DNA from: Oscillospiraceae bacterium
Lineage (GTDB): Bacteria; Bacillota; Clostridia; Oscillospirales; Ruminococcaceae
Direction: 5' to 3'
Length of the DNA: 11,122 nucleotides
NCBI GenBank assembly: GCA_017848155.1
Contig: JAGAKC010000250.1
Span: 1 to 11,122, forward strand
Positions 714 through 10,316 of the stretch are shown here, one piece after another. Both the position numbers and the translations under genes were made by a program. The notes under the pieces were generated by a model. The model had not been told where the DNA came from, did not search any database, and worked only from the letters and a program-made list of their open reading frames with translations. Each line of letters starts with the position of its first letter. Position 1 is the first letter of the stretch.

Positions 714-2658
714 GATTGCTGAAAGATCCGGCTTCTGTTTCGGGGTCGAGAGGGCGATACGGCTGACCGAGGAGGCGGCGGAAAGATACGGCGAGGTTTA
801 CACGCTGGGACCGCTGATCCACAACCGCATCGTTACGGACTCCTTACAGGAAAAGGGTATCCATATAGCCGACGGAGTGGAACAGGCTGCGGGCAGACCG
901 CTGGTCATACGCTCCCACGGTGTTGACAGGGAAACAGAGGAAAGAGCGAATGCGGAATGCTCCGTCTGCATCGACGCAACCTGTCCGTTTGTGAAGAAGA
1001 TACACAATATCGTATCGGAGCAGCCGACAGACGGCGCAGTGGTGATACTTGGCGACAGGGATCATCCCGAGGTCATCGGCATAAAGGGTCATGCACGTTG
1101 CCGTGCGTATGTGTGCGGAGATCTTGATGAGATCGAGGCGCTCTTTCGTGACGGTGTGCTTTCAGAGGACGGGAATGTGGCTCTCGTCATCCAGACGACC
1201 TTCGACCGCAGCAGGTTTCTTGAATATTCCCGTGTTATCGGGGAACGATACCGCTGTGTAAAAATATATGACACGATATGCAATGCAACGTCCGAGCGTC
1301 AGAAAAACGCTGAGGAGCTTGCAAAAAGAGCTGCGCTGATGATCGTTGTCGGAGGAAAAAGCAGCTCGAACACAGGGAAGCTTGCTGAGATATGCAGAAG
1401 GCACACCGTGACCGTGTTTACGGAGAACGCCGAAAGCCTTCCCGGGCAGCTTTTACAAGGGCTGCGCTCCGATAGTATTATCGGAATTACGGCGGGAGCT
1501 TCGACCCCTGCCTACACTATAAAGGAGGTTCATGAGAGAATGAACGAAGAGATCAAAAACATCAATGAAAATGAGGAGGACTTCGCTGCTCTGCTCGACC
1601 AGTCTTTTAGAAGAGTATATACCAACAACAGAGTTAAAGCTATAGTTGTAGGCATCAACAAGAATGAAGCTGTAGTTGAGCTCGGCACGAAGCAGACGGG
1701 TTACATACCCCTCGACGAGCTGACAAACGATCCCAACGCTGCTGTTGCTGACGTTGTAAGCATCGGTGACGAGATCGAGGCTATCGTAACCAAGGTCGAC
1801 GATTCCAACGGCGTTATCTTCCTTTCCAAGAAGAAGGTAGATTCCGCACTGGGCATGGAGAAGATCGCTGCTTCCAAGGAAGCTAACGAGACTCTCGAGG
1901 GCGTTGTTACTGCTGCTGTTAAGGGCGGTATCATCGTTATCTACAATGGCACACGTGTATTCATCCCCGCTTCCCAGACAGGCGTTCCCCGTTCCGGCAA
2001 GCTTGAGGATCTGGTTAAGAAGACAGTTCCCTTCAAGGTTATCGAGATCAACGAGCAGCGTGGTCGTGTTGTAGGCTCTATCAGACAGGCTACAAAGGAA
2101 GTTCGTGACGCTGAGAAGGCTAAGTTCTGGGAGTCCATCGAGGTTGGTCAGAAGTTCGAGGGCGAGGTTCGCTCCATCGAGGATTACGGTGTATTTGTTG
2201 ACATCGGCGCTGTTGACGGTCTTGTTCGCACAAGCGAGCTGACATGGAACAGAGTTGGTCATCCCAAGGACATCGTTAAGGAAGGCGATAAGATCACTGT
2301 TATCGTTAAGTCCTTCGATCCCGAGAAGAAGAGAGTTTCCCTCTCCGCTAAGGATCCCGACGAGAATCCCTGGACAAAGTTCGTTGCTGACTACGCTATT
2401 GATGATGTTATCAAGGCTACTATCGTTAGCATCACAGAGTTCGGTGCTTTCGCTCAGATCATCCCCGGCGTTGACGGTCTGATCCACATTTCCCAGATCT
2501 CCACAGAGAGAGTTACAAACATCGCTAACGTTCTCTCCGTAGGTCAGGAAGTTGACGTAAAGATCATCGACATCGACACAGACAAGAACAGAGTTTCCCT
2601 TTCCATGAAGGCTCTCATGGAGGACGCTGCTCCTGCTGACGACGCTGACGCTGAGTAA
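703..2658 (+). CDS. ispH-rpsA: IspH (HMBPP reductase) fused to ribosomal protein S1
   Basis: A 651-residue fusion typical of Clostridia. Residues 1 to about 280 are IspH, the iron-sulfur enzyme that reduces HMBPP to IPP and DMAPP in the last step of the MEP pathway. The three cluster cysteines are Cys12 (SGFCFGV), Cys94 (DATCPF) and Cys193 (ICNATSERQ). His40, His72 and His121 and the HPEVIG segment with Glu123 form the substrate pocket. Residues from about 300 to 640 hold four S1 RNA-binding repeats, at about 305-385, 395-465, 478-550 and 565-640; the last two are the most canonical (GVFVDIG, GAFAQI). The tail is acidic. ATG 703 is preceded by AGGAGAG at 688-694; an in-frame ATG at 670 lies inside plsC and lacks a comparable site. 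Codon use changes sharply at about base 1560, from a mixed pattern to a GTT/GCT/ATC/AAG-rich one, as if the S1 half were tuned for high expression. Confidence 0.95.
   Translation: MLIEIAERSGFCFGVERAIRLTEEAAERYGEVYTLGPLIHNRIVTDSLQEKGIHIADGVEQAAGRPLVIRSHGVDRETEERANAECSVCIDATCPFVKKIHNIVSEQPTDGAVVILGDRDHPEVIGIKGHARCRAYVCGDLDEIEALFRDGVLSEDGNVALVIQTTFDRSRFLEYSRVIGERYRCVKIYDTICNATSERQKNAEELAKRAALMIVVGGKSSSNTGKLAEICRRHTVTVFTENAESLPGQLLQGLRSDSIIGITAGASTPAYTIKEVHERMNEEIKNINENEEDFAALLDQSFRRVYTNNRVKAIVVGINKNEAVVELGTKQTGYIPLDELTNDPNAAVADVVSIGDEIEAIVTKVDDSNGVIFLSKKKVDSALGMEKIAASKEANETLEGVVTAAVKGGIIVIYNGTRVFIPASQTGVPRSGKLEDLVKKTVPFKVIEINEQRGRVVGSIRQATKEVRDAEKAKFWESIEVGQKFEGEVRSIEDYGVFVDIGAVDGLVRTSELTWNRVGHPKDIVKEGDKITVIVKSFDPEKKRVSLSAKDPDENPWTKFVADYAIDDVIKATIVSITEFGAFAQIIPGVDGLIHISQISTERVTNIANVLSVGQEVDVKIIDIDTDKNRVSLSMKALMEDAAPADDADAE
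1521..1542 (+). promoter_or_regulatory. Internal ribosome binding site before the S1 half
   Basis: AAAGGAGG at 1521-1528, a near-perfect Shine-Dalgarno sequence, lies inside the fusion gene exactly where the IspH domain ends. An in-frame ATG (Met280 of the fusion) starts at 1540, 11 bases downstream. A closer ATG at 1532 is out of frame and stops after three codons. The site could allow independent translation of a roughly 372-residue S1 protein. Confidence 0.5.
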
Positions 2659-2675
2659 TCAATACCAGACACAAA

Positions 2676-2704
2676 GACCTCCCTGTTAAAGGGAGGTTTT
2701 TTTA
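2676..2704 (+). terminator. Terminator of the cmk-plsC-ispH/rpsA operon
   Basis: ACCTCCC (2677-2683) pairs with GGGAGGT (2691-2697) around a 7-base loop and is followed by a run of seven T. It lies 18 bases after the stop codon of the fusion gene and is a textbook intrinsic terminator. Confidence 0.93.
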
Positions 2705-2810
2705 TTGTATTTAGTTCTGTTATACATAGGCTTTATATTACGATTTGTAATATAATATTTATCTACAAATTGTGATATCTGGCGTCAGGATAACAAATAG
2801 TATTACAGAA

Positions 2811-2857
2811 TATGCAGCTGATCCTGTACCTGCCGACAGGAAAGAAGCAGCTGCATA
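2811..2857. repeat. Two-stage hairpin, possible structured RNA
   Basis: TATGCAGCTG (2811-2820) is perfectly complementary to CAGCTGCATA (2848-2857). Inside it, TCCTGT (2822-2827) pairs with ACAGGA (2836-2841) around an 8-base loop. The structure lies in a non-coding gap and just before another hairpin at 2875-2908. It could be a small RNA or a dyad repeat; the sequence alone does not decide, and no protein frame explains it. Confidence 0.5.
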
Positions 2858-2873
2858 GTTTGCTCATATACAG

Positions 2874-2908
2874 AAAAACCACTGTGTAACTATACAAACA
2901 GTGGTTTT
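2874..2908 (-). terminator. Probable terminator of the cysteine desulfurase gene
   Basis: AAAACCACTGT (2875-2885) pairs perfectly with ACAGTGGTTTT (2898-2908) around a 12-base loop. On the minus strand it ends in five T and lies about 75 bases after the desulfurase stop codon. On the plus strand it ends in four T, so it may work in both directions. Confidence 0.65.
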
Positions 2909-2982
2909 ATATGTTGATATAACAAATTGTAATAGTGAATTATGCGGAATAATGTGAGATATTGTAATATTATATCGAAAAA

Positions 2983-4107
2983 TTACAAAGAGTATATGAT
3001 ATCCCTGATGGCTGACAGGACAGCTTCCACCTCATCTGCTGTGCTTAACGCAGACAGCGACAGACGTAATGCGCCCTTTGCAAGTTCAGTGCTCCTGCCT
3101 ATGGCAAGCATGACACGGCTCGGCTCGGACATGCCTGAGGAGCAGGCGGAGCCGCTGGAAGCGCAGATGTCCCGTCTGCTAAGCTCATACACCAGCCTCT
3201 CGCCTGTGATATTACCGAAGCAGAAGCTGACGTTGCCGCACAGCCTGTCGTAACGTGGACCGTTGAGGTAGGTGTCAGGCAGTGCGGCTATCCCCTCGAT
3301 AAGAGCGTCACGGAGCGCCGCAGTCCTTTCGGTGGCTATCGGCATTATGGACACGGCGTCCGCAAGTGAGGCTGACATTCCCATTATGGCAGGCAGGTTT
3401 TCCGTGCCGCCACGACGTCCACGCTCCTGCGTGCCGAAAATGAGCTGCGTTACAGGCACACCTGTGCGCACGTACAGCGCACCTGCACCCTTTGGTCCGT
3501 GGAATTTGTGAGCGGACAGGGTCAGCATGTCACGGCACAGCTTCTTCACATCCAGCGGAAGCACTCCTGCTGCCTGGACAGCGTCGGTGTGGAAAAGCAC
3601 TCCCTTTTCACGGCATAGCTGCCCAATCGCTGAAACGGGCTGGATGGTGCCTATCTCATTGTTGGCGGTCATTATGCTCACAAGCGCCGTGTCAGACCGT
3701 ATAGCAGCCGAAACATCACCGACCGAAACACGACCCTCGCTGTCCACGGGGAGCAGTGTCACTTCAAACCCACGTCTTTCGAGGGACTTAAGACATTCAA
3801 GCACCGAGTGGTGCTCGGTCTGCTGGGATATGATGTGCCGTTTTCCCTGTGAGCCACCGTATTCTGCGGCAGATATCAGCGCCATTGTGTTTCCCTCGCA
3901 GCCGCCCGATGTGAAGAATATCTCGTTTGCAGCTGCGCCGAGAATGGAAGCTACCTTTCTGCGTGCGGCGAAGAGAAGTCCTGCGGCAGACTGCCCTGCG
4001 GAGTGCTGCGAGGAGGGATTTCCGTAGTCATCCCGAAGCACTGACAGCATCGCCGAGATAGCGTGCTCGGACGGTCTGGTGGTGGCGGCATTATCGAAAT
4101 ATATCAT
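2983..4107 (-). CDS. nifS: Cysteine desulfurase, NifS/IscS type
   Basis: A 374-residue PLP-dependent enzyme that removes sulfur from cysteine as a protein persulfide for iron-sulfur clusters or other thio-cofactors. It starts MIYFDNAATT, the family signature. PLP-binding landmarks are His99 (TEHHS), Asp175 (HTDAVQ) and the Schiff-base lysine Lys201 in LSAHKFHGPKG. The catalytic cysteine is Cys322 in ASSGSACSSG. Length is normal for the family. ATG 4105-4107 is preceded by AAAGGAG (complement of 4115-4121) seven bases away. No scaffold gene (iscU) or thiI is adjacent in this window, so the sulfur acceptor is unknown. The nifS symbol indicates the family; iscS would be an equal choice. Confidence 0.93.
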   Translation of the reverse strand: MIYFDNAATTRPSEHAISAMLSVLRDDYGNPSSQHSAGQSAAGLLFAARRKVASILGAAANEIFFTSGGCEGNTMALISAAEYGGSQGKRHIISQQTEHHSVLECLKSLERRGFEVTLLPVDSEGRVSVGDVSAAIRSDTALVSIMTANNEIGTIQPVSAIGQLCREKGVLFHTDAVQAAGVLPLDVKKLCRDMLTLSAHKFHGPKGAGALYVRTGVPVTQLIFGTQERGRRGGTENLPAIMGMSASLADAVSIMPIATERTAALRDALIEGIAALPDTYLNGPRYDRLCGNVSFCFGNITGERLVYELSRRDICASSGSACSSGMSEPSRVMLAIGRSTELAKGALRLSLSALSTADEVEAVLSAIRDIIYSL

Positions 4108-4134
4108 GTGCGTGCTCCTTTACTGAAATAGCTA

Positions 4135-4163
4135 CTGAAATTATATCATGCTGCCCGTATAAT
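4135..4163 (+). promoter_or_regulatory. Possible asnB promoter
   Basis: CTGAAA (4135-4140) and TATAAT (4158-4163) are 17 bases apart. The boxes overlap those of the divergent desulfurase promoter, so the two may compete for RNA polymerase. A second TATAAT at 4197-4202, within a repeated TATAATGTC, lacks a recognisable -35 box and is less likely. Confidence 0.4.
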
Positions 4164-4168
4164 GTCAA
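4140..4168 (-). promoter_or_regulatory. Consensus sigma-A promoter for the cysteine desulfurase gene
   Basis: On the minus strand TTGACA (complement of 4163-4168) and TATAAT (complement of 4140-4145) are both perfect and 17 bases apart, with an extended TG before the -10 box. It lies 33 bases upstream of the start codon and overlaps the putative asnB promoter on the other strand. Confidence 0.85.
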
Positions 4169-4235
4169 GAAACGTAACCATCACGGCGCAGCTGCATATA
4201 ATGTCGGAGAGAGCTATCGGGAAAGGAGCGATACT

Positions 4236-5384
4236 ATGTGCGGAATAGCAGGACAGATAGGCTTTGACCGTGATATGCGTGGTCAGGCAGAGGTGATGGC
4301 GGCAATGAGCGCCGCTCTTGCGCCGAGAGGCCCTGACGCAAAGGGCGAATACAGCGACACTGCGGCATACCTTGTGCACAGACGGCTGATAGTGGTAGAC
4401 CCCGAAAACGGCAGGCAGCCGATGACCGAGGGCAGCTACACCATCGTGTACAACGGCGAGCTGTACAACACAGCGGAGATACGTGAGCAGCTTCAGAGGG
4501 ACGGCATGACCTTTGACGGGCACAGCGATACGGAGGTCGTGCTGAAAGCGTTTATCAGGTATGGCGAGGATTGTGCAAGGCTCTTCAACGGGATATTTGC
4601 GTTTGCGGTGTGGGACAGCCGCAGGCGGCGGCTTTTCCTGTGCCGTGACAGGATAGGCGTAAAGCCGCCCTTTTACTCCTTTGCGGACGGCGGTATAATT
4701 TTTGCGAGCGAGATAAAGGCGCTGCTTAAGAATCCTGCGGTGAAGCCTGTGATAACACGTGAGGGAGTTATGGACATAATGCTCATCGGCCCTGCAAAAC
4801 GGGTCGGCGGCGGAGTATTCCGTGATATTGCGGAGATACCGCCTGCGCACTATGCGTATTTTGATGAGGACGGCTTCACGATGATGAGATACTGGGAGCT
4901 GAAGGCGGCTCCGCATACGGAGGGCTTTGAGGATACCGCCCGTCATGTGAGGGAGCTTATCACCGACGCTGTGAAGCGGCAGCTGGTCAGTGACGTGCCG
5001 CTTTGCTGCTTCCTTTCGGGCGGACTTGACAGCAGCGTGATATCCGCAATAGCGGCAGAGGAATTCAGAAAACGGGGAGAGCAGCTCTGCACCTGGTCGA
5101 TAGACTACCGTGACAATCACAGAAACTTCACCGCAAGCAGCTTTCAGCCTGACGAGGACGCTCCGTGGATAGTGAAGATGGCGGAATATATCGGCTCCGA
5201 CCATACTGACGTGGTGCTGGATACGCCTGCGCTGACTGATGCGCTGGATGACGCAGTGCTTGCACGTGACCTGCCCGGTATGGCGGATGTGGACAGCTCG
5301 CTGTACCTTTTCTGCAGGGAGATAAAGAAGCGTTTTCCCGTGGCGCTGTCGGGGGAGTGTGCGGATGAGTATTTACACACATGA
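4236..5384 (+). CDS. asnB: Asparagine synthetase, N-terminal part, interrupted by the element
   Basis: The 5' part of a glutamine-hydrolysing asparagine synthetase, which makes asparagine from aspartate, glutamine and ATP. Cys2 (MCGIAG) is the nucleophile of the class II glutaminase domain (about 1-190), with NGELYN at about 73-78. The synthetase domain begins after it, with the ATP pyrophosphatase loop SGGLDSS at 261-267. Native sequence ends at Glu378 (base 5369) within SGECADE; four foreign codons (YLHT) follow, then a TGA inside the element. The remaining 231 codons resume at 9621. The piece keeps the glutaminase half but lacks the C-terminal part of the synthetase domain, so asparagine synthesis from it is unlikely. 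AAAGGAG at 4222-4228 supports ATG 4236. Confidence 0.93.
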   Translation: MCGIAGQIGFDRDMRGQAEVMAAMSAALAPRGPDAKGEYSDTAAYLVHRRLIVVDPENGRQPMTEGSYTIVYNGELYNTAEIREQLQRDGMTFDGHSDTEVVLKAFIRYGEDCARLFNGIFAFAVWDSRRRRLFLCRDRIGVKPPFYSFADGGIIFASEIKALLKNPAVKPVITREGVMDIMLIGPAKRVGGGVFRDIAEIPPAHYAYFDEDGFTMMRYWELKAAPHTEGFEDTARHVRELITDAVKRQLVSDVPLCCFLSGGLDSSVISAIAAEEFRKRGEQLCTWSIDYRDNHRNFTASSFQPDEDAPWIVKMAEYIGSDHTDVVLDTPALTDALDDAVLARDLPGMADVDSSLYLFCREIKKRFPVALSGECADEYLHT

Positions 5385-5392
5385 CCTAACAC
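5345..5392 (+). other. attL, left junction of the element
   Basis: The left half is asnB sequence up to ATGAG (5365-5369); the right half is element DNA with CACATG (5378-5383) and AACAC (5388-5392). The only exact match at the crossover with the right junction is ATGAG, shared with 9616-9620. The GA at 5367-5368 is the inferred two-base crossover. Confidence 0.85.
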
Positions 5393-5406
5393 CTTGCATA
5401 TCCCTG

Positions 5407-5444
5407 AAAAAAATGTCCCCGCATATCCTGCGGGGACATTTTTT
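5407..5444. terminator. Bidirectional terminator just inside the left end
   Basis: AAAAAATGTCCCCGCA (5408-5423) pairs with TGCGGGGACATTTTTT (5429-5444), a 16-bp perfect stem with a 5-base loop and T runs on both strands. On the plus strand it would stop transcription arriving from the interrupted asnB. On the minus strand it lies 35 bases after the 14-codon ORF and would end its transcript. Confidence 0.92.
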
Positions 5445-5479
5445 GATCATATGCTGTTTCAGCCGTCATGGCATACACA

Positions 5480-5524
5480 TTATAATCCCAGAATGTATCT
5501 GAAGAACATTTCCCAGAAATCCAT
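5480..5524 (-). CDS. 14-residue hydrophobic peptide, divergent from the response regulator
   Basis: A short minus-strand frame encodes MDFWEMFFRYILGL. Its ATG is preceded by GGAGG (complement of 5532-5536) with 7 bases between, an in-frame stop lies shortly upstream, and a promoter and a terminator flank it, giving a transcript of about 145 bases. The peptide is rich in Phe, Trp, Tyr and Leu with Asp, Glu and Arg interspersed, so it could form an amphipathic helix. It has no Gly-Gly leader and no Cys for an AgrD-like thiolactone. I do not recognise it. Possible roles are a signal peptide for the adjacent kinase, a small membrane-active product, or just a leader on a small RNA. The full set of expression signals is what makes it credible; the function is unknown. 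Confidence 0.6.
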   Translation of the reverse strand: MDFWEMFFRYILGL

Positions 5525-5556
5525 CTCTACACCTCCAAAAGCTGTTTAATGAATTA

Positions 5557-5585
5557 AGGATAGCTTATCGGAAAGCGTATATCAA
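5557..5585 (-). promoter_or_regulatory. Promoter of the small peptide transcript, possible LytTR site
   Basis: On the minus strand TTGATA (complement of 5580-5585) and TATCCT (complement of 5557-5562) are 17 bases apart, about 33 bases before the ATG. TCCGTTGAT (complement of 5581-5589) overlaps the -35 box and matches the LytTR-type half-site pattern [TA][AC][CA]GTTN[AG][TC]. I see no clean second copy one helical spacing away, so binding by the neighbouring regulator is only suggested. Confidence 0.55.
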
Positions 5586-5621
5586 CGGATTTGCTACGTA
5601 AGGTATGAAAATCGTGACGAC

Positions 5622-5650
5622 TTGATAATTTTTCGAAACAATGGTATAAT
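5622..5650 (+). promoter_or_regulatory. Promoter of the response regulator-kinase operon
   Basis: TTGATA (5622-5627) and TATAAT (5645-5650) are separated by 17 bases, close to the sigma-A consensus, 31 bases before the response regulator ATG. An odd palindrome, TCGTGACGA, sits directly upstream at 5612-5620 and could be an operator. Confidence 0.8.
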
Positions 5651-5681
5651 GGGATAAACAAACTGTCAAAGGAGAGTGGCC

Positions 5682-6392
5682 ATGCATATTGCGATTTGTG
5701 ATGATGAAAGAGTATGGCACGAGGTGCTGCTGAAGCTTCTCAGGGAATACTCTGGAAAAAGACAGCTGGATATATACACGCAAAGCTTCGCAAACGGAAG
5801 GGCGCTTGCGGAATCAAACAAGAAATTCGATATCATCTTCATGGATTACAGAATGAAGGGCATAAACGGGATAGAAACGGCACGGCGGATACGTGAGGTG
5901 TCGCCTGAAAGCGTCATCATCTTTGTAAGCTCACATACGGATGTTGCGATAGATACTTTTGAGGTAAAGGCATACCGCTTCCTTGCAAAGCCTATCAACC
6001 GCTCAAAGCTGTTCAAGGCACTGGACGACTATCGTGCGGAGATAGACCTTGACAGCTTTCTTATCTATAAGACCCATGACATGACGCTGAGGATAAGGAT
6101 ATCCGACATCATCTATGTGGAGGCCGCAAAAAACCACGCAATAATACATACCGCAAGCGAGGCTCATGAGGTGGTAAAGAATCTGAAACAGGTGTACAAT
6201 GATCTTCCTAAGGATAAATTCTACCGCTGTCAGAAGTCATATGTCGTGTCCTTCCTTCATATCCGTGCCCATGATAAGGAGGAGATCTATCTGGACGACG
6301 GCCGCAGCGTAAAGATCAGCCGTAATTCCATAAGGGACTTCAGAAACTCATTTCAAGAATATATACTGAAATACAACACGGGAGATGTATAA
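5682..6392 (+). CDS. LytTR-family (AgrA-like) response regulator
   Basis: A 236-residue protein with an N-terminal receiver (about 1-120) and a C-terminal LytTR DNA-binding domain (about 128-232). Receiver landmarks are Asp7-Asp8 (IAICDDE), the phosphoacceptor Asp55 in IIFMDYRM, and Lys103 in FLAKPI. The LytTR part carries the family's DIIYVEAAKNHAIIHT and FYRCQKSYVVSF segments. The family binds promoter DNA as a dimer after phosphorylation by a GHKL kinase. ATG 5682 lies six bases after AAAGGAGA (5668-5675); the in-frame GTG at 5676 touches that site and is rejected as the start. The kinase gene follows without a gap, so they form an operon. Likely targets are the divergent peptide promoter, its own promoter, and perhaps the recombinase region; this is inferred. 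Confidence 0.9.
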   Translation: MHIAICDDERVWHEVLLKLLREYSGKRQLDIYTQSFANGRALAESNKKFDIIFMDYRMKGINGIETARRIREVSPESVIIFVSSHTDVAIDTFEVKAYRFLAKPINRSKLFKALDDYRAEIDLDSFLIYKTHDMTLRIRISDIIYVEAAKNHAIIHTASEAHEVVKNLKQVYNDLPKDKFYRCQKSYVVSFLHIRAHDKEEIYLDDGRSVKISRNSIRDFRNSFQEYILKYNTGDV

Positions 6393-7724
6393 ATGGAATT
6401 ACTGCTGATAATTGCAGAGATGGCGGCAGATATCATCCTGCTGCTTGCCGTGTTTTCGGTGCTTGCCACTGTGGGCGGTACGTCATCGAGGGCAGGCAAG
6501 GGTGTAATGATCGCAGCTATGGCGGCTTTCTGCCTGGTGGGCGCAGTCACTTATGCGAACATCGCATCACAGAGCTTTATCGTGAAGCTGGTCATGACGG
6601 CGCTGAATCTGCTGAAATATCTGGTGGCTGCGGCGGTGGTGTACAGGCGGTGCGACCTTAAGCTCATATGCATCGTGCTCATCGTGCAGTTCGTGTGCAA
6701 TATGCTCACCTCTGCGGTGAATCTGTGCCTTGCGACAGAGTTTACGGAGCAGCATCGCTGGGTGGATATGGTCGTGCTTCTGGCAGTGCGGAGCGTTGTG
6801 CTGCTTATCATGACTGCAATAAGACGAAGAACACAGAACGTTTACACAAACAACGCCCTTGACCTTGTACCGAAGCATATTTTTCTGCTGATCCTTGCTT
6901 GCTGCTTTTTTGCGAGCGGTCTGATACACTCTGCGGATATAGATACCTCGCAGCTTGCTTCAAAGCTTACGCTCATAAAGTTCTTTTCGATGGCCGTGAT
7001 GCTGTGCATATCGGCTGTTGCGATATCGCTGCTGACGAACGTGCTGGGAAAGCGGTACTACAGCGATATCAGCCGCATCCTTGAGCAGCAGGTGCAGACC
7101 CAGCTTGCGCATTATGAGCAGCGTGAGAGAGCCAATACCGAGATAAGAAGCTTCAGGCATGATTATAATAACCATATAAGCTGCATCAGGGCGCTGCTGG
7201 ATTCGGGCAGATACGAGGAGGTGGAGGAGTATCTCGGGAAGCTGTCTGAAAGGCTTCCGTCGGGCAGCTTTAACTACAGCACGGGAAACTACCTTTCGGA
7301 TGCGATACTCTCCGACAAGCAGGAGAGCGCAGGAAAGGACGGCGTGGAGATAGCTTTCAGCGGAACTATACCCACCTCCATAAACAATACCGACCTGTGC
7401 ATAATCCTGACAAATGCGCTTGACAATGCCATCGAAGCGTGCAGGGCATATAACGGCGAGAGAAGGATAAGCGTATTCGGCGGCTTCAGGCACGGATATT
7501 TCATACTGATCGTAAAAAATCCCACCGTGAACTCCATGACCGGTTCCGCACTGCCTGCGACCACGAAGCAGGACAAGCAGCACCACGGGTTCGGACTTCT
7601 CAATATCAGCGCTGTTGTGGAGAAGTACGACGGCTTTATAAAGCACGAGATAAGCGACGGTCAGTTCGTGCTGAGCCTTACCTTCAACAGCGTCACGGAG
7701 GCCGCCTGTAATACGGGCGCTTAG
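6393..7724 (+). CDS. GHKL sensor histidine kinase (AgrC-like)
   Basis: A 443-residue membrane kinase. Residues 1-220 contain six or seven hydrophobic segments (around 3-25, 37-57, 62-83, 90-113, 124-142, 161-178 and 192-217). The phosphorylated histidine is His256 in SFRHDYNNH, a form typical of the AgrC/FsrC/ComD kinase class. The ATPase domain has the N box with Asn341 and Asn345 (TNALDNAIEAC) and the G box GFGLLN at 399-404. Members of this class usually sense secreted peptides. No AgrB-type processing protease or AgrD-type precursor is present on the element, so the ligand is unknown; the divergent 14-residue peptide is a candidate. The start directly follows the regulator stop (TAA-ATG), with GGGAG at 6380-6384. 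Its stop codon overlaps the stop of the convergent 68-residue gene in the four bases TTAG. Confidence 0.9.
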   Translation: MELLLIIAEMAADIILLLAVFSVLATVGGTSSRAGKGVMIAAMAAFCLVGAVTYANIASQSFIVKLVMTALNLLKYLVAAAVVYRRCDLKLICIVLIVQFVCNMLTSAVNLCLATEFTEQHRWVDMVVLLAVRSVVLLIMTAIRRRTQNVYTNNALDLVPKHIFLLILACCFFASGLIHSADIDTSQLASKLTLIKFFSMAVMLCISAVAISLLTNVLGKRYYSDISRILEQQVQTQLAHYEQRERANTEIRSFRHDYNNHISCIRALLDSGRYEEVEEYLGKLSERLPSGSFNYSTGNYLSDAILSDKQESAGKDGVEIAFSGTIPTSINNTDLCIILTNALDNAIEACRAYNGERRISVFGGFRHGYFILIVKNPTVNSMTGSALPATTKQDKQHHGFGLLNISAVVEKYDGFIKHEISDGQFVLSLTFNSVTEAACNTGA

Positions 7725-7927
7725 CTGTCTATACAAGTTAAAGCCGTATCGGTATCGTCCGTGCGGCTTTTCTGCTGTGCGGAAAGGTGCTCGTAAAGCA
7801 GATGTGCAGCGCTGTCCAGTATCCTTTCCGTTTCCTCGGGCGAAGCAACTCTGTCGTCTGCGACAGCGCCGATGCGCCTGCCGCTGCTGTCATATATCAC
7901 CCTTGCGATGTGCGGTTGTTTTTCCAT
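7721..7927 (-). CDS. Hypothetical 68-residue protein beside the recombinase; candidate excision factor
   Basis: A small protein starting MEKQPHIARVIYDSSG, mostly hydrophilic and without a membrane segment. It has a beta-like N-terminal half, an Asp/Glu-containing helix (PEETERILDSAAHLLYEHL), and an acidic, Thr-rich tail. I do not recognise a family. The ATG at 7925-7927 is preceded by GGGGGTGAT, a near-complete match to the 16S anti-Shine-Dalgarno, which rules out the longer in-frame start at 8008 that has no such site. The gene is divergent from the recombinase with about 125 bases between them and convergent with the kinase, whose stop it overlaps by 4 bases. Recombination directionality factors for serine recombinases are often small and encoded beside the recombinase, so this is a candidate by position only. 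Its ribosome binding site lies partly in a hairpin. Confidence 0.7.
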   Translation of the reverse strand: MEKQPHIARVIYDSSGRRIGAVADDRVASPEETERILDSAAHLLYEHLSAQQKSRTDDTDTALTCIDS

Positions 7928-7935
7928 GATATCAC

Positions 7936-7972
7936 CCCCTGTAAAGCATATGCGCAGGGGTCGTCTTTTTTT
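7936..7972. promoter_or_regulatory. Hairpin: possible kinase-operon terminator and ribosome-site sequestration
   Basis: CCCCTG (7936-7941) pairs with CAGGGG (7955-7960); the 13-base loop contains the palindrome GCATATGC (7946-7953). On the plus strand it is followed, after TCGTC, by seven T, and could end transcription from the regulator-kinase operon. On the minus strand the same stem covers half of the Shine-Dalgarno of the 68-residue gene. Both readings are sequence-based; neither function is proven. Confidence 0.5.
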
Positions 7973-7984
7973 CGCAGTGCGCCC

Positions 7985-8013
7985 GAATCCGTCGGAATAT
8001 GCGCTCATATAAT
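7985..8013 (+). promoter_or_regulatory. Weak possible promoter of the recombinase
   Basis: A perfect TATAAT at 8008-8013 lies about 40 bases before the recombinase start. The matching -35 position (7985-7990, GAATCC) is poor, so the promoter would be weak or need an activator. Confidence 0.3.
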
Positions 8014-8053
8014 CTGATATACCGTAGGACTAAGGCTTTGGAAAGGGATAATG

Positions 8054-9619
8054 ATGAGCTACTGTATCTATTTGAGAAAATCACGGTCGGATATCGAAGC
8101 GGAGCAGCGTGGAGAGGGTGAAACGCTGTCACGGCACCGCACGGCGCTTCTACAGTATGCACAAAGGCATGCGCTTCATATAGGCGCTGTATACGAGGAG
8201 ATAGTGTCGGGAGAGAGCATCGCAGCACGTCCTGTCATGCGGCAGCTTCTGACAGAGGTGGGTGAAAGGAGATGGGACGGCGTACTTGTTATGGAGGTGG
8301 AGCGTCTTGCAAGAGGAGATACCATGGACCAGGGAGTAGTCGCCCAGGCTTTCAAATACTCCGAAACGCTCATAATCACTCCGTTAAAGACCTACGACCC
8401 CAATAACGAATACGATGAGGAGTATTTTGAATTCGGCCTGTTTATGAGCCGCAGGGAATACAAGACCATCCGCCGCCGTCTGCTGCGTGGCAGGGAGGCT
8501 GCAGCGAGAGAGGGGAAATGTCTTGGTCGGGCGCCTTATGGCTACAGAAAGGTGAAGCTCACGGGGGATAAGGGCTATTCGATGGAGATAGTCGGGCAGG
8601 AGGCGGACACGGTGCGCATGATATATGACTGGTACATAGACGGCATCCTGACCTGTGACGGGCGCAGACGGCTCGGGATACAGGCGATAGCAAAGCGCCT
8701 TAACCGGCTTTCGGTGCCTGCCATAAGGCATGACTACTGGCAGAAGGAAACGGTGCGTGACATCCTGACGAATCCTGCCTATGCAGGTCTTATCCGCTGG
8801 GGCTACAGAAAGCAGCAAAGGCGCATCGGCAGTGACGGAAGGCTGATATCCCGTCTGGAAAGGAATGAAAGCTGCATCGTAAGCGAGGGACTTCACGAGG
8901 CGATTATTCCACGTGAGCGCTGGGAGAGGGCGCAGCAGCTGTTTTCACAGCAGCCGCCTGCGCCTGTCGGCTACAGAAGTGCCGTGAAAAATCCGCTTTC
9001 GGGTCTTGTGGTGTGCAGCAGCTGCGGCAGGAGGATGGCTATGCGCAAAGGCTCGGGCGGTCGTCCCGATTACCTTGTGTGCGGCAGGCGAGGCTGTGAT
9101 ACGGTCAGTGCGCCGCTGCATCTTGTGGAGAAAAGGCTGCTGGATATACTTGGGGAATGGACGGGGGGATATCGTGTGGCTCCGAAAGAGCACGCTTCGG
9201 CTGATGCGGAGGATGTCGGAGCTGCCATAAGCCGCAGGGAAAAGGAGCTGTTTTCATGCGAAAGGCGGCTTGAAAGGGTGCAGGAGCTGACCGAGCTTGA
9301 TGTGTATTCCGCAGAGGAATACGTTTCACGGCGTGCGGCGATAGCTGCGGAGATGGAATTGATACGGCAGGAGCTGCGGCGGCTGACGGAGCAGGGCAAA
9401 AAAACAGCGCCCCTGCCTGTGGCAAGGACGCTTGTTGAGATATACTGTGAGCTTTCCTCCGCTGCGGAAAAAAACCGTCTGCTTAAAGAGATAGTTGCCC
9501 ATGCCGAATACAGCAAGACGGTGAGCGCACGCTTCAGGGGGCAGCGTGCAGACGCTTTTGACCTTGTCGTTTACCCACGGCTTGCGGAAAAGCGTGTTGC
9601 GGCATGTGATGAAGCATGA
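8054..9619 (+). CDS. Large serine recombinase (site-specific integrase)
   Basis: A 521-residue protein that integrates and, with a partner, excises DNA through a 5' phosphoserine link at a two-base core. The N-terminal resolvase domain (about 1-150) begins CIYLRKSRSD, with Ser10 the likely nucleophile and Arg8; Arg84 and Arg87 lie in VERLARGD. The recombinase domain (about 155-300) includes APYGYRK and ILTNPAYAGLIRWGY. A zinc ribbon follows with Cys321, Cys324, Cys343 and Cys348. A long helical, heptad-like region (about 385-450) matches the coiled-coil arm that controls direction in this family. ATG 8054 sits six bases after GAAAGGG (8041-8047); the ATG at 8051 is too close. The stop codon TGA (9617-9619) lies inside the crossover core, so the frame ends at the same codon in integrated and excised forms. 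It appears intact. Confidence 0.95.
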   Translation: MSYCIYLRKSRSDIEAEQRGEGETLSRHRTALLQYAQRHALHIGAVYEEIVSGESIAARPVMRQLLTEVGERRWDGVLVMEVERLARGDTMDQGVVAQAFKYSETLIITPLKTYDPNNEYDEEYFEFGLFMSRREYKTIRRRLLRGREAAAREGKCLGRAPYGYRKVKLTGDKGYSMEIVGQEADTVRMIYDWYIDGILTCDGRRRLGIQAIAKRLNRLSVPAIRHDYWQKETVRDILTNPAYAGLIRWGYRKQQRRIGSDGRLISRLERNESCIVSEGLHEAIIPRERWERAQQLFSQQPPAPVGYRSAVKNPLSGLVVCSSCGRRMAMRKGSGGRPDYLVCGRRGCDTVSAPLHLVEKRLLDILGEWTGGYRVAPKEHASADAEDVGAAISRREKELFSCERRLERVQELTELDVYSAEEYVSRRAAIAAEMELIRQELRRLTEQGKKTAPLPVARTLVEIYCELSSAAEKNRLLKEIVAHAEYSKTVSARFRGQRADAFDLVVYPRLAEKRVAACDEA

Positions 9620-9641
9620 GATATTCGGTGGCTACCCGTGG
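9594..9641 (+). other. attR, right junction of the element
   Basis: Element DNA with GTGTT (9594-9598) and CATGTG (9603-9608) leads into ATGAG (9616-9620), followed by asnB sequence from ATA at 9621. The inner half consists of the last codons of the recombinase. The GA at 9618-9619 is the inferred crossover dinucleotide matching 5367-5368. Confidence 0.85.
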
Positions 9642-10316
9642 TATCACAGGGAGGATGTGCTGTTTTACGACGGCTTTCCGTGGAGCACTGCCGTGCCCGA
9701 GCGTGCCGCACTGATGCGCATGAAGCTGACGGCGGCGGAGGCGGAGGAATTCGTCCGCACCGCATATGACGAAACTATATCACATACGGACTATCTTGAC
9801 GGCGAGAGCGTCACAGACCGCCGCATGCGTGAGATGTATCTGCTGAATCTGGAGTATTTCATGGCGACGCTGCTGGACCGCAAGGACAGGATGTCCATGG
9901 CGAATGGTCTTGAGGTGCGTGTGCCATTCTGCGATTACAGGATAGTTGAGTATGCATACAACATTCCATGGGACATGAAAGCCTACCGTGGCAGGGAAAA
10001 GGGACTTGTCCGATATGCGATGGAGGGCATACTTCCCGAGGATGTGCTGTGGCGGAAGAAGAGTCCCTATCCAAAGACCCACAATCCCGATTATCTGAGG
10101 CTGCTTGAAACGAAGCTGCGCAGGGTGCTTAGCTCCCCCGACTGCCGCATTACCGAGATAGTTGACAGGGATAGGCTCTGTGAGATGCTGGACAGCGGCG
10201 GCAGGAGCTTCGGAAAAAACTGGTACGGACAGCTTATGACCGTCCCCCAGATATATGCTTATCTCCTCCAGACGGAAAAGTGGCTGCGTGCATATGACGT
10301 TACCGTTACGGACTGA
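9621..10316 (+). CDS. asnB: Asparagine synthetase, C-terminal part, separated by the element
   Basis: The remaining 231 codons of asnB, beginning IFGGYPWYHRED, the second half of the conserved SGExADEIFGGY motif of the synthetase domain. Downstream blocks such as LLNLEYFMATLLDRKDRMSMANGLEVRVPFCD and WRKKSPYPKTHNP are typical of the family's C-terminal region. There is no start codon with a ribosome binding site at the junction. In-frame GTG (9606) and ATG (9609) codons inside the end of the recombinase gene could at best give low expression. Joined to the fragment ending at 5369 it gives 609 residues, the usual AsnB length. The frame is undamaged through to its stop, which argues that the split is recent or that excision keeps it under selection. 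It ends two bases before the convergent mntP stop. Confidence 0.93.
   Translation: MFGGYPWYHREDVLFYDGFPWSTAVPERAALMRMKLTAAEAEEFVRTAYDETISHTDYLDGESVTDRRMREMYLLNLEYFMATLLDRKDRMSMANGLEVRVPFCDYRIVEYAYNIPWDMKAYRGREKGLVRYAMEGILPEDVLWRKKSPYPKTHNPDYLRLLETKLRRVLSSPDCRITEIVDRDRLCEMLDSGGRSFGKNWYGQLMTVPQIYAYLLQTEKWLRAYDVTVTD

Follow-up and report, generated by a model that had tools for sequence, protein, structure and literature searches.

A 4.25-kb serine-integrase element that splits asnB in an Oscillospiraceae genome and is predicted to excise precisely

What becomes of a conserved amidotransferase gene when 4.25 kb of other DNA comes to lie inside one of its conserved motifs? The question is raised by asnB in a window of 11,122 nucleotides, which is the whole of contig C178 of an Oscillospiraceae metagenome-assembled genome (MAG; likely family Ruminococcaceae, 2.39 Mb in 498 contigs, 77% complete). 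The best-known elements that split genes in this way lie in sporulation genes. We consider it quite probable that the interruption is a minimal element of the serine-integrase type, with a likely origin in a prophage, which occupies an attachment (att) site at codon 378 of asnB and which its own integrase, together with a likely directionality protein, is predicted to cut out precisely, restoring the gene.

The two parts of asnB fit together exactly. Direct reading and translation confirm what an initial annotation of the window had proposed, namely that codons 1–378 end at position 5369 and that codons 379–609 start at 9621, after a second ATGAG. The copies of this pentamer at 5365–5369 and 9616–9620 bracket the element, which by direct reading spans 5370–9620 and measures 4,251 bp when one copy is counted. 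Joining the halves restores the gene, as was also claimed: the translation runs to 609 codons, reads ...SGECADEIFGGYPWY across the junction and has no internal stop, and the Pfam Asn_synthase match, which stops at model position 131 in the N-half, restarts at 131 in the C-half. In the split state the N-half frame continues for four residues (YLHT) past the junction to give a protein of 382 amino acids, and the C-half comprises 231 codons. The N-half alone scores 349.6 bits against TIGR01536 (cut-off 267.1), which places it in the asparagine synthetase family. Exact removal of the element would restore the reading frame, as is characteristic of gene-intervening elements, and the annotation was right to see a recombinase element comparable with those of the skin type. 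The arrangement is more than chance, because asnB is complete and unsplit in 22 of 43 congeneric genomes, the break at this codon recurs in six others, and inverted repeats flank the predicted exchange point in all seven loci so cut. We also considered whether a conserved gene neighborhood could prove that the halves belong together. In the 1.5-kb asnB flanks of relatives MntP had no match and the cysteine desulfurase had weak matches (best 59%, at one locus), which leaves protein continuity and the att sites as the basis of the argument. The features of the locus are as follows.

4236–5369, plus strand: asnB codons 1–378, glutamine amidotransferase domain and first part of the synthetase domain (TIGR01536, Pfam, translation)
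5340–5400, unstranded: attL, made up of the asnB-side half of attB, core TGA(G) and the attP right arm (TATTTACACACATGACCTAACACC); predicted exchange dinucleotide GA at 5367–5368
5405–5447, unstranded: terminator-like hairpin, −25.3 kcal/mol (z −7.65)
5480–5524, minus strand: leaderless 14-amino-acid peptide open reading frame (ORF), MDFWEMFFRYILGL, with a strong ribosome-binding site
5525–5681, unstranded: divergent promoter region of peptide and response regulator, with the best-scoring LytTR-box-like pair (minus strand from 5665)
5682–6392, plus strand: response regulator, receiver and LytTR domains (PF00072, PF04397)
6393–7724, plus strand: sensor kinase, GHKL ATPase with Spo0B-type helix (Pfam), AgrC-like though far under the AgrC cut-off
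7721–7927, minus strand: 68-amino-acid protein, likely recombination directionality factor, as its co-occurrence with the integrase clade suggests
8051–9619, plus strand: large serine integrase, 522 amino acids, stop codon TGA inside the att core (Pfam, phrog_95, YLRKSR motif, YokA)
9590–9650, unstranded: attR, made up of the attP left arm (GTGTTGCGGCATGTGATGAAGC), core with GA at 9618–9619 and the asnB-side half of attB
9621–10316, plus strand: asnB codons 379–609 and stop (Pfam, translation, comparison with relatives)

The att sites carry much of this reading. We reconstructed attP for each of the seven loci with a break at codon 378 (the window, G003, G004, G010, G011, G019 and G026), using the element-side sequence at both junctions, and in all seven the best palindrome is centered between the G and the A of that codon. 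The inverted repeat pairs 15 of 25 positions in the window, a score equaled by 12 of 2000 shuffles, and 16–20 of 25 in the six other loci, equaled by 0–6 of 2000. Every junction shares a core of TGA followed by a purine, within which GA is the predicted point of exchange. The ATGAG repeat of the initial annotation is thus present at both window junctions but is not general, since G004 has GTGAG. Inverted repeats around a fixed dinucleotide in attP, with a short direct repeat of the core at attL and attR, are the form expected of large-serine-integrase sites. Because GA is not self-complementary, the core should dictate which way round the element inserts. Nevertheless, the integrase gene adjoins the asnB C-half in the window and G026 and the N-half in G003, G004, G010, G011 and G019, which implies that it has changed sides of attP.

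The integrase itself has Resolvase, Recombinase and Zn-ribbon domains (Pfam) together with the catalytic serine motif, and is therefore a large serine integrase. It matches phrog_95 at 5e-92, its YLRKSR motif is invariant in all eight aligned sequences, and its nearest solved structure is YokA, which we take to be SprA of SPbeta. In a tree of 57 of the 61 sequences tried (four, including L026 and L154, were left out as too short or broken), eight codon-378 integrases and eight others form one clade with a Shimodaira–Hasegawa-like approximate likelihood ratio support of 99. By eye, at least six of the eight members outside asnB abut pieces of a LysM/glycosyl-hydrolase-18 gene, as does a more distant integrase copy on contig C79 of the window's own genome; Pfam confirmed that gene for the two copies run, L013 and C79. 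In several of these cases the integrase sits at a GATGAATGG-like Asp-Glu codon pair. Such positions are what phage-type integrases with changing targets would produce. The integrase on C79 (locus L118, 3280–5314) is 46% identical to that of the window and abuts the C-terminal part of the glycosyl-hydrolase-18 gene. C79 is phage-like by eye; with it, this genome has two gene splits of the same type.

The same codon also houses prophages. The element of G004 is ∼46 kb long and, among the proteins tested against PHROGs, includes terminase, portal, head-protease, major-head and tape-measure families; in that of G011, also ∼46 kb, a tape-measure gene was identified together with a portal from another family than that of G004 (phrog_21 versus phrog_12). 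Judged by their genes, at least two kinds of tailed prophage, in addition to the 4.25-kb element of the window, use codon 378, and the elements of G003, G010 and G019 are prophage-like by eye or by homology. Persistence of a codon-378 prophage in the sister pair G010/G011 was considered and dropped: the prophage genes are a mosaic (12 pairs, synonymous divergence dS 0.06–0.80 or saturated; integrase 0.15; host flank median 0.32), and two independent insertions are as likely. Outside the genus, an integrase of this kind lies beside an asnB half in one of 38 genome_contigs loci (L127, AsnB 44% identical) and in three of 80 IMG/VR loci (80 of 277 relatives), two of which are alike, with AsnB identities of 44–49%. 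The window element by comparison contains no packaging, capsid or tail genes detectable with Pfam and thus does not qualify as a prophage. Nor were relaxase or conjugation genes found, its four larger ORFs matching other Pfam domains or none, so it does not class as an integrative and conjugative or integrative and mobilizable element. The four proteins examined include no defense genes.

Excision by a serine integrase would call for a partner, and the 68-amino-acid protein is a likely candidate. A search with a nine-row profile over the 43 congeneric genomes found it in one copy each in 16. It is present in 14 of the 15 genomes that have an integrase of the clade and in 2 of the 28 others (Fisher 2e-8), G022 being counted among the 28 because its integrase fragment is too short to place. 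In 13 of these 14 genomes integrase and partner share a contig, the partner gene always being upstream and divergent, at a distance of 118 bp in the window and 1.1–5.1 kb elsewhere; in G019 the two are on different contigs. The predicted structure is a hairpin plus a helix (mean predicted local distance difference test score 77) and matched nothing at E 0.001. Position and pairing fit a directionality factor, a function to which the co-occurrence points. Together, these features suggest how the locus may work. The integrase would have placed the element in asnB, leaving the gene off for as long as the element stays, and the integrase and the 68-amino-acid protein would jointly remove it. The host may tolerate the split because its Asn-tRNA is made by transamidation.

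That last step replaces an earlier idea. The initial annotation had supposed that the insertion might be tolerated because another asparagine synthetase exists, and had proposed looking for one. We found no other Asn_synthase locus in the window's own genome, which is 77% complete, and AsnA had no match in any of the 43 genomes (2 of 14 control genomes were positive), so that a second synthetase was discarded as the reason for tolerance. Asparaginyl-tRNA synthetase (AsnRS) scored above its cut-off in none of the 43 genomes, against 7 of the 14 controls, and GatB is present in 42 of 43. When AsnRS and AsnA are both lacking, Asn-tRNA is made by amidating Asp-tRNA-Asn. The window's own genome has two bacterial-type aspartyl-tRNA synthetase (AspRS) genes, one of them followed by gatC, a short gatA-like gene and gatB. 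This AspRS-gatC-gatA-gatB cluster lies at 1654–6445 of locus L116, and its gatA-like ORF of 399 amino acids scores 240 bits against a gatA cut-off of 481. The genus thus probably makes its Asn-tRNA by transamidation, in which case AsnB would serve other needs only. Six of the 43 genomes have no asnB match, and three of these (G009, G016 and G033) are at least 93% complete, which suggests that asnB can be lost.

The joined AsnB, searched at E 1e-20, matched in 37 of the 43 genomes. The annotation's suggestion that intact copies be sought in relatives was borne out by the 22 that are full-length and uninterrupted. Of the seven genes cut at codon 378, those of the window, G004 and G011 lie with both halves on a single contig, and the rest are spread over two. 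A second site (site B) lies near codon 464, where both parts were found in G003, G014, G027, G035 and G038, so that G003 is split at both. In G008 asnB stops at the second site and runs into other DNA, its C-part not being found; in G023 and G006 it ends at contig ends, and G022 is partial. Split genes thus make up 12–13 of the 37, about a third. On the AsnB tree the codon-378 state requires six changes and any split nine as labeled; rows G008 and G023 carried the label of the second site, and without them, by subtraction, that site requires three changes (not five) and any split seven (not nine). With several state changes, the splits are repeated, independent events. Beyond the genus set, 14 of the 120 AsnB matches listed, the window's own included, end at SGECADE or 4–10 residues beyond (chosen by a length of 378–388), and the window's N-half belongs to a 90% cluster of seven sequences. 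A literature search judged by title and abstract yielded no paper about elements in asnB.

The split genes are, for the most part, as well kept as the unsplit ones. We defined invariant columns on the intact relatives (22 complete, one partial), leaving out the intact complete rows one at a time. The window AsnB changes 2 of 274 such columns, within the range of the 22 intact complete rows (0–7 of 274–281), and G004, G010, G011, G019 and G026 change 0–6. G003 changes 11, of which ∼5 are an artefact of overlapping pieces at its second site; an apparent stop at codon 460 in this row is the same artefact. Among genes split at the second site, G035 changes 1, G038 2, G027 6 and G014 12 (two at the junction), the last lying above the intact range. 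No split row contains a real internal stop. The end branch of the window on the AsnB tree is 0.13, compared with 0.12–0.14 in G005, G006 and G007 and 0.18, the longest of its group, in G008. The ratio of nonsynonymous to synonymous divergence (dN/dS) between the window asnB and its nearest intact sisters is 0.08–0.12 in both halves, with dS near saturation. Thus the window asnB shows no sign of decay. Decay of either half in related strains, which the initial annotation had named, together with a lack of excised molecules, as the mark of a dead insertion, is absent as far as stops are concerned and mostly absent in conservation, G014 being not quite as well preserved.

The second site adds a measure of time. 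In G003 and G027 it holds elements of ∼5 kb that each encode one serine recombinase plus one large protein that looks secreted; in the G003 copy the latter has BspA-type leucine-rich repeats (Pfam). Their shared genes have dS of 0.29 and 0.46, against 0.16–0.35 in four flanking host genes, and the asnB of this pair has a dN/dS of 0.045, against 0.034–0.060 in seven unsplit pairs with a proportion of synonymous differences of 0.21–0.34. Since the shared element is as diverged as its flanks and asnB dN/dS lies in the unsplit range, the simplest reading of these sequences is that the split predates both species and that asnB has remained in use, something that requires excision; the alternative is independent insertion of two related elements. 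These elements occupy L073 6898–11934 and L080 4575–10043; their large protein evolves fast (dN/dS 0.43), and the BspA-type repeats are those of L073. Other second-site elements encode serine recombinases of 187–189 amino acids, resolvase-like by eye (L076 8399–8962, L074 3616–4185), L076 also having a large recombinase.

Several observations weigh against precise, functional excision from the window. Such excision is itself a prediction from sequence, and the window's attP palindrome is the weakest of the seven. The codon-378 label requires two changes, not one, on the integrase tree. G026 has a clade integrase without the 68-amino-acid protein, its contigs ending inside the element, and G002 and G012 have the protein without a detected clade integrase. 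That protein has no significant match in Pfam, NCBIfam, PHROGs, PDB sequences or fold searches, and it is absent from the 80 IMG/VR and 38 genome_contigs loci, two scans of viral contigs confirming none. Finally, the 120 matches listed include no intact AsnB with more than 83% identity (87% for the N-half), so that, with split alleles alone among the close matches listed, the inserted state may be fixed. This last point, together with the seven-member split cluster, speaks for a one-way insertion that is fixed in the species and has knocked out a dispensable asnB, which will decay. Such a dead end we hold to be possible, though unlikely. The genomes without asnB are in keeping with it, as are the 12 changed columns of G014 at the second site and the long end branch of G008; identity to the nearest species whose gene is unsplit or edge-cut is 80–84%, so the insertion could also be young. 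But the reading frames of integrase and partner are open, split rows have no real internal stop, five of the six other codon-378 rows change no more columns than intact genes do, and the second-site element of G003/G027 has diverged no less than most of the asnB flanking genes while dN/dS of asnB itself remains low. Assembly of unrelated contigs into a chimera, which a fragmented MAG might invite, is extremely improbable: both junctions fall at a codon and core seen in six other genomes, with matching inverted arms, and among the matches listed a 99% identical integrase lies on a 20-kb contig, longer than the window's.

If excision does occur, who benefits? A host-adapted switch on the model of sigK/skin and spsM/SPbeta, in which a host or population cue would time excision so that asnB comes on when required, is in our estimate rather unlikely for this element. 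The initial annotation's version, a switch for asparagine synthesis, is tentative also because the substrate of the gene product is uncertain (see below for its nearest solved relative). It has precedents, which include a nonphage element, gin, whose target gene holds a prophage in another species (PMC4191935, PMC5025042, PMC5595907). Purifying selection on the second-site asnB across a species divergence also favors it, and Spo0A, present in 37 of 43 genomes including the window's own, makes a developmental cue possible. However, the predicted regulator sites point away from the integrase (see below), asnB was not found in some near-complete genomes, and the evidence for persistence comes from the second site only, where independent insertion is an alternative. 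Another idea is that the OFF state pays: loss of an AsnB-type amidotransferase would alter the cell wall and shield the lysogen or element carrier from other phages. AsnB homologues are described as amidating diaminopimelate in peptidoglycan (PMC8554201), and phage-J1-resistant mutants of Lactobacillus casei included transposon insertions in asnH (PMC3885529). The nearest solved relative of the window AsnB is a hydroxyamidotransferase (457 bits) rather than Escherichia coli AsnB (151 bits), and two different prophages share the codon. The window protein also has G and D where E. coli D320 and R325 align, presumably the aspartate-binding positions, in what is a remote alignment. Yet the comparison covered no sequence of a proven diaminopimelate-amidating AsnB, and such enzymes fall in several clades of the published tree (PMC8554201). 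The choice of target may simply follow the conserved DNA of the SGECADEIFGGYPW motif, and we judge a benefit of the OFF state quite improbable.

The predicted excision leaves the cargo to be accounted for. Relatives of the cargo kinase occur in 26 genomes besides its own, among 297 of the family, at 24–41% identity, with regulators up to 50% identical. A leaderless hydrophobic peptide ORF of 8–14 amino acids, divergent from the regulator, is found at 14 of the 19 loci with at least 500 bp upstream and at 14 of 26 overall, the window included; by a criterion set after peptides had been seen, the random control gave 2.5% of 3,000 pieces. Upstream of it, by eye, ∼10 of 13 relatives have a pair of LytTR-like boxes 21 bp apart. 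Trained on these 13, a box model scored 225, against 101–119 in eight shuffled sets, those being run with fewer restarts. Kinase, regulator and peptide ORF look like a putative peptide-signaling module. It resembles agr-type quorum sensing in its GHKL kinase, LytTR regulator and adjoining peptide gene, and differs in its leaderless peptide ORFs of 8–14 amino acids and in that no AgrB protease or AgrD-length precursor was seen among the ORFs scanned in the element, which for this reason is not an agr system; the kinase scores 30 bits against an AgrC cut-off of 500. Titles and abstracts in the literature searched gave no description of such a leaderless system. The peptide ORF family spans window 5480–6392, L092–L096 and L119–L126, with the ORF duplicated in L124, and in L119, L120 and L122–L126 a protein of ∼140–167 amino acids follows it by eye, one missing from the window element. 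Direct control of the integrase by the element's LytTR regulator was rejected as unsupported: the best box pair falls in the promoter region of the peptide, and the integrase has none of the 15 best pairs upstream of it. It is a long shot that the element is a natural minimal prophage turned communication-gated switch, whose leaderless hydrophobic peptide would, via kinase and LytTR regulator, time excision and rebuild a wall-changing amidotransferase, the same gene being a repeatedly colonized on/off site across the genus.

It is useful to set the window element beside known systems. SPbeta differs from it in being a full prophage, and the 68-amino-acid protein has no significant match to a solved chain, the fusion of YokA with YotN (presumably SprB) included. 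SPbeta is nonetheless alike in having a related integrase (SprA, with directionality factor SprB) and in splitting a host gene, spsM, that exact excision rebuilds (PMC4191935). Reduced in the laboratory to sprA and sprB it still excises, and that minimized version is close to the natural layout of the window element (PMC4191935). The gin element in gerE of Bacillus cereus is also nonphage, uses a serine recombinase with an extra factor (GirX) and inverted-repeat att sites, and restores a split coding gene that a prophage occupies in another species (PMC5595907). It differs in size (28.6 kb against 4.25 kb), in having three recombinases rather than one integrase, and in splitting a sporulation gene rather than an amidotransferase gene with signaling cargo; excision of gin has been demonstrated (PMC5595907), whereas that of the window element is predicted. 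The skin element of Clostridioides difficile shares the pairing of a large serine recombinase with a small direction-setting factor (CD1231, CD1234), and its target is sigK, with known regulation, instead of asnB (PMC5025042). Also comparable are the asnB prophages of G004 and G011 and the prophage-like elements of G003, G010 and G019, which share codon, core and integrase clade. All five genomes have the 68-amino-acid partner as well, in four of them on the contig that carries the integrase. These elements carry phage genes, and their integrase gene lies on the opposite side of attP from that of the window and G026.

Overall, this is a real, well-bounded gene-interrupting serine-integrase element, of unusually small size, in an unusual gene and with unusual cargo, and there is good support for its structure and origin. 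A single amidotransferase gene has been interrupted at two sites by differing prophages and small cargo elements, mostly without signs of decay, and the asnB splits are thereby a clear test case for phages becoming reversible gene interrupters. With integrase and likely directionality protein 118 bp apart, the window element looks close to a minimal natural version. Its matched set of integrase, att sites and partner is offered for genome engineering, and its cargo would point to a family of leaderless peptide signaling systems.

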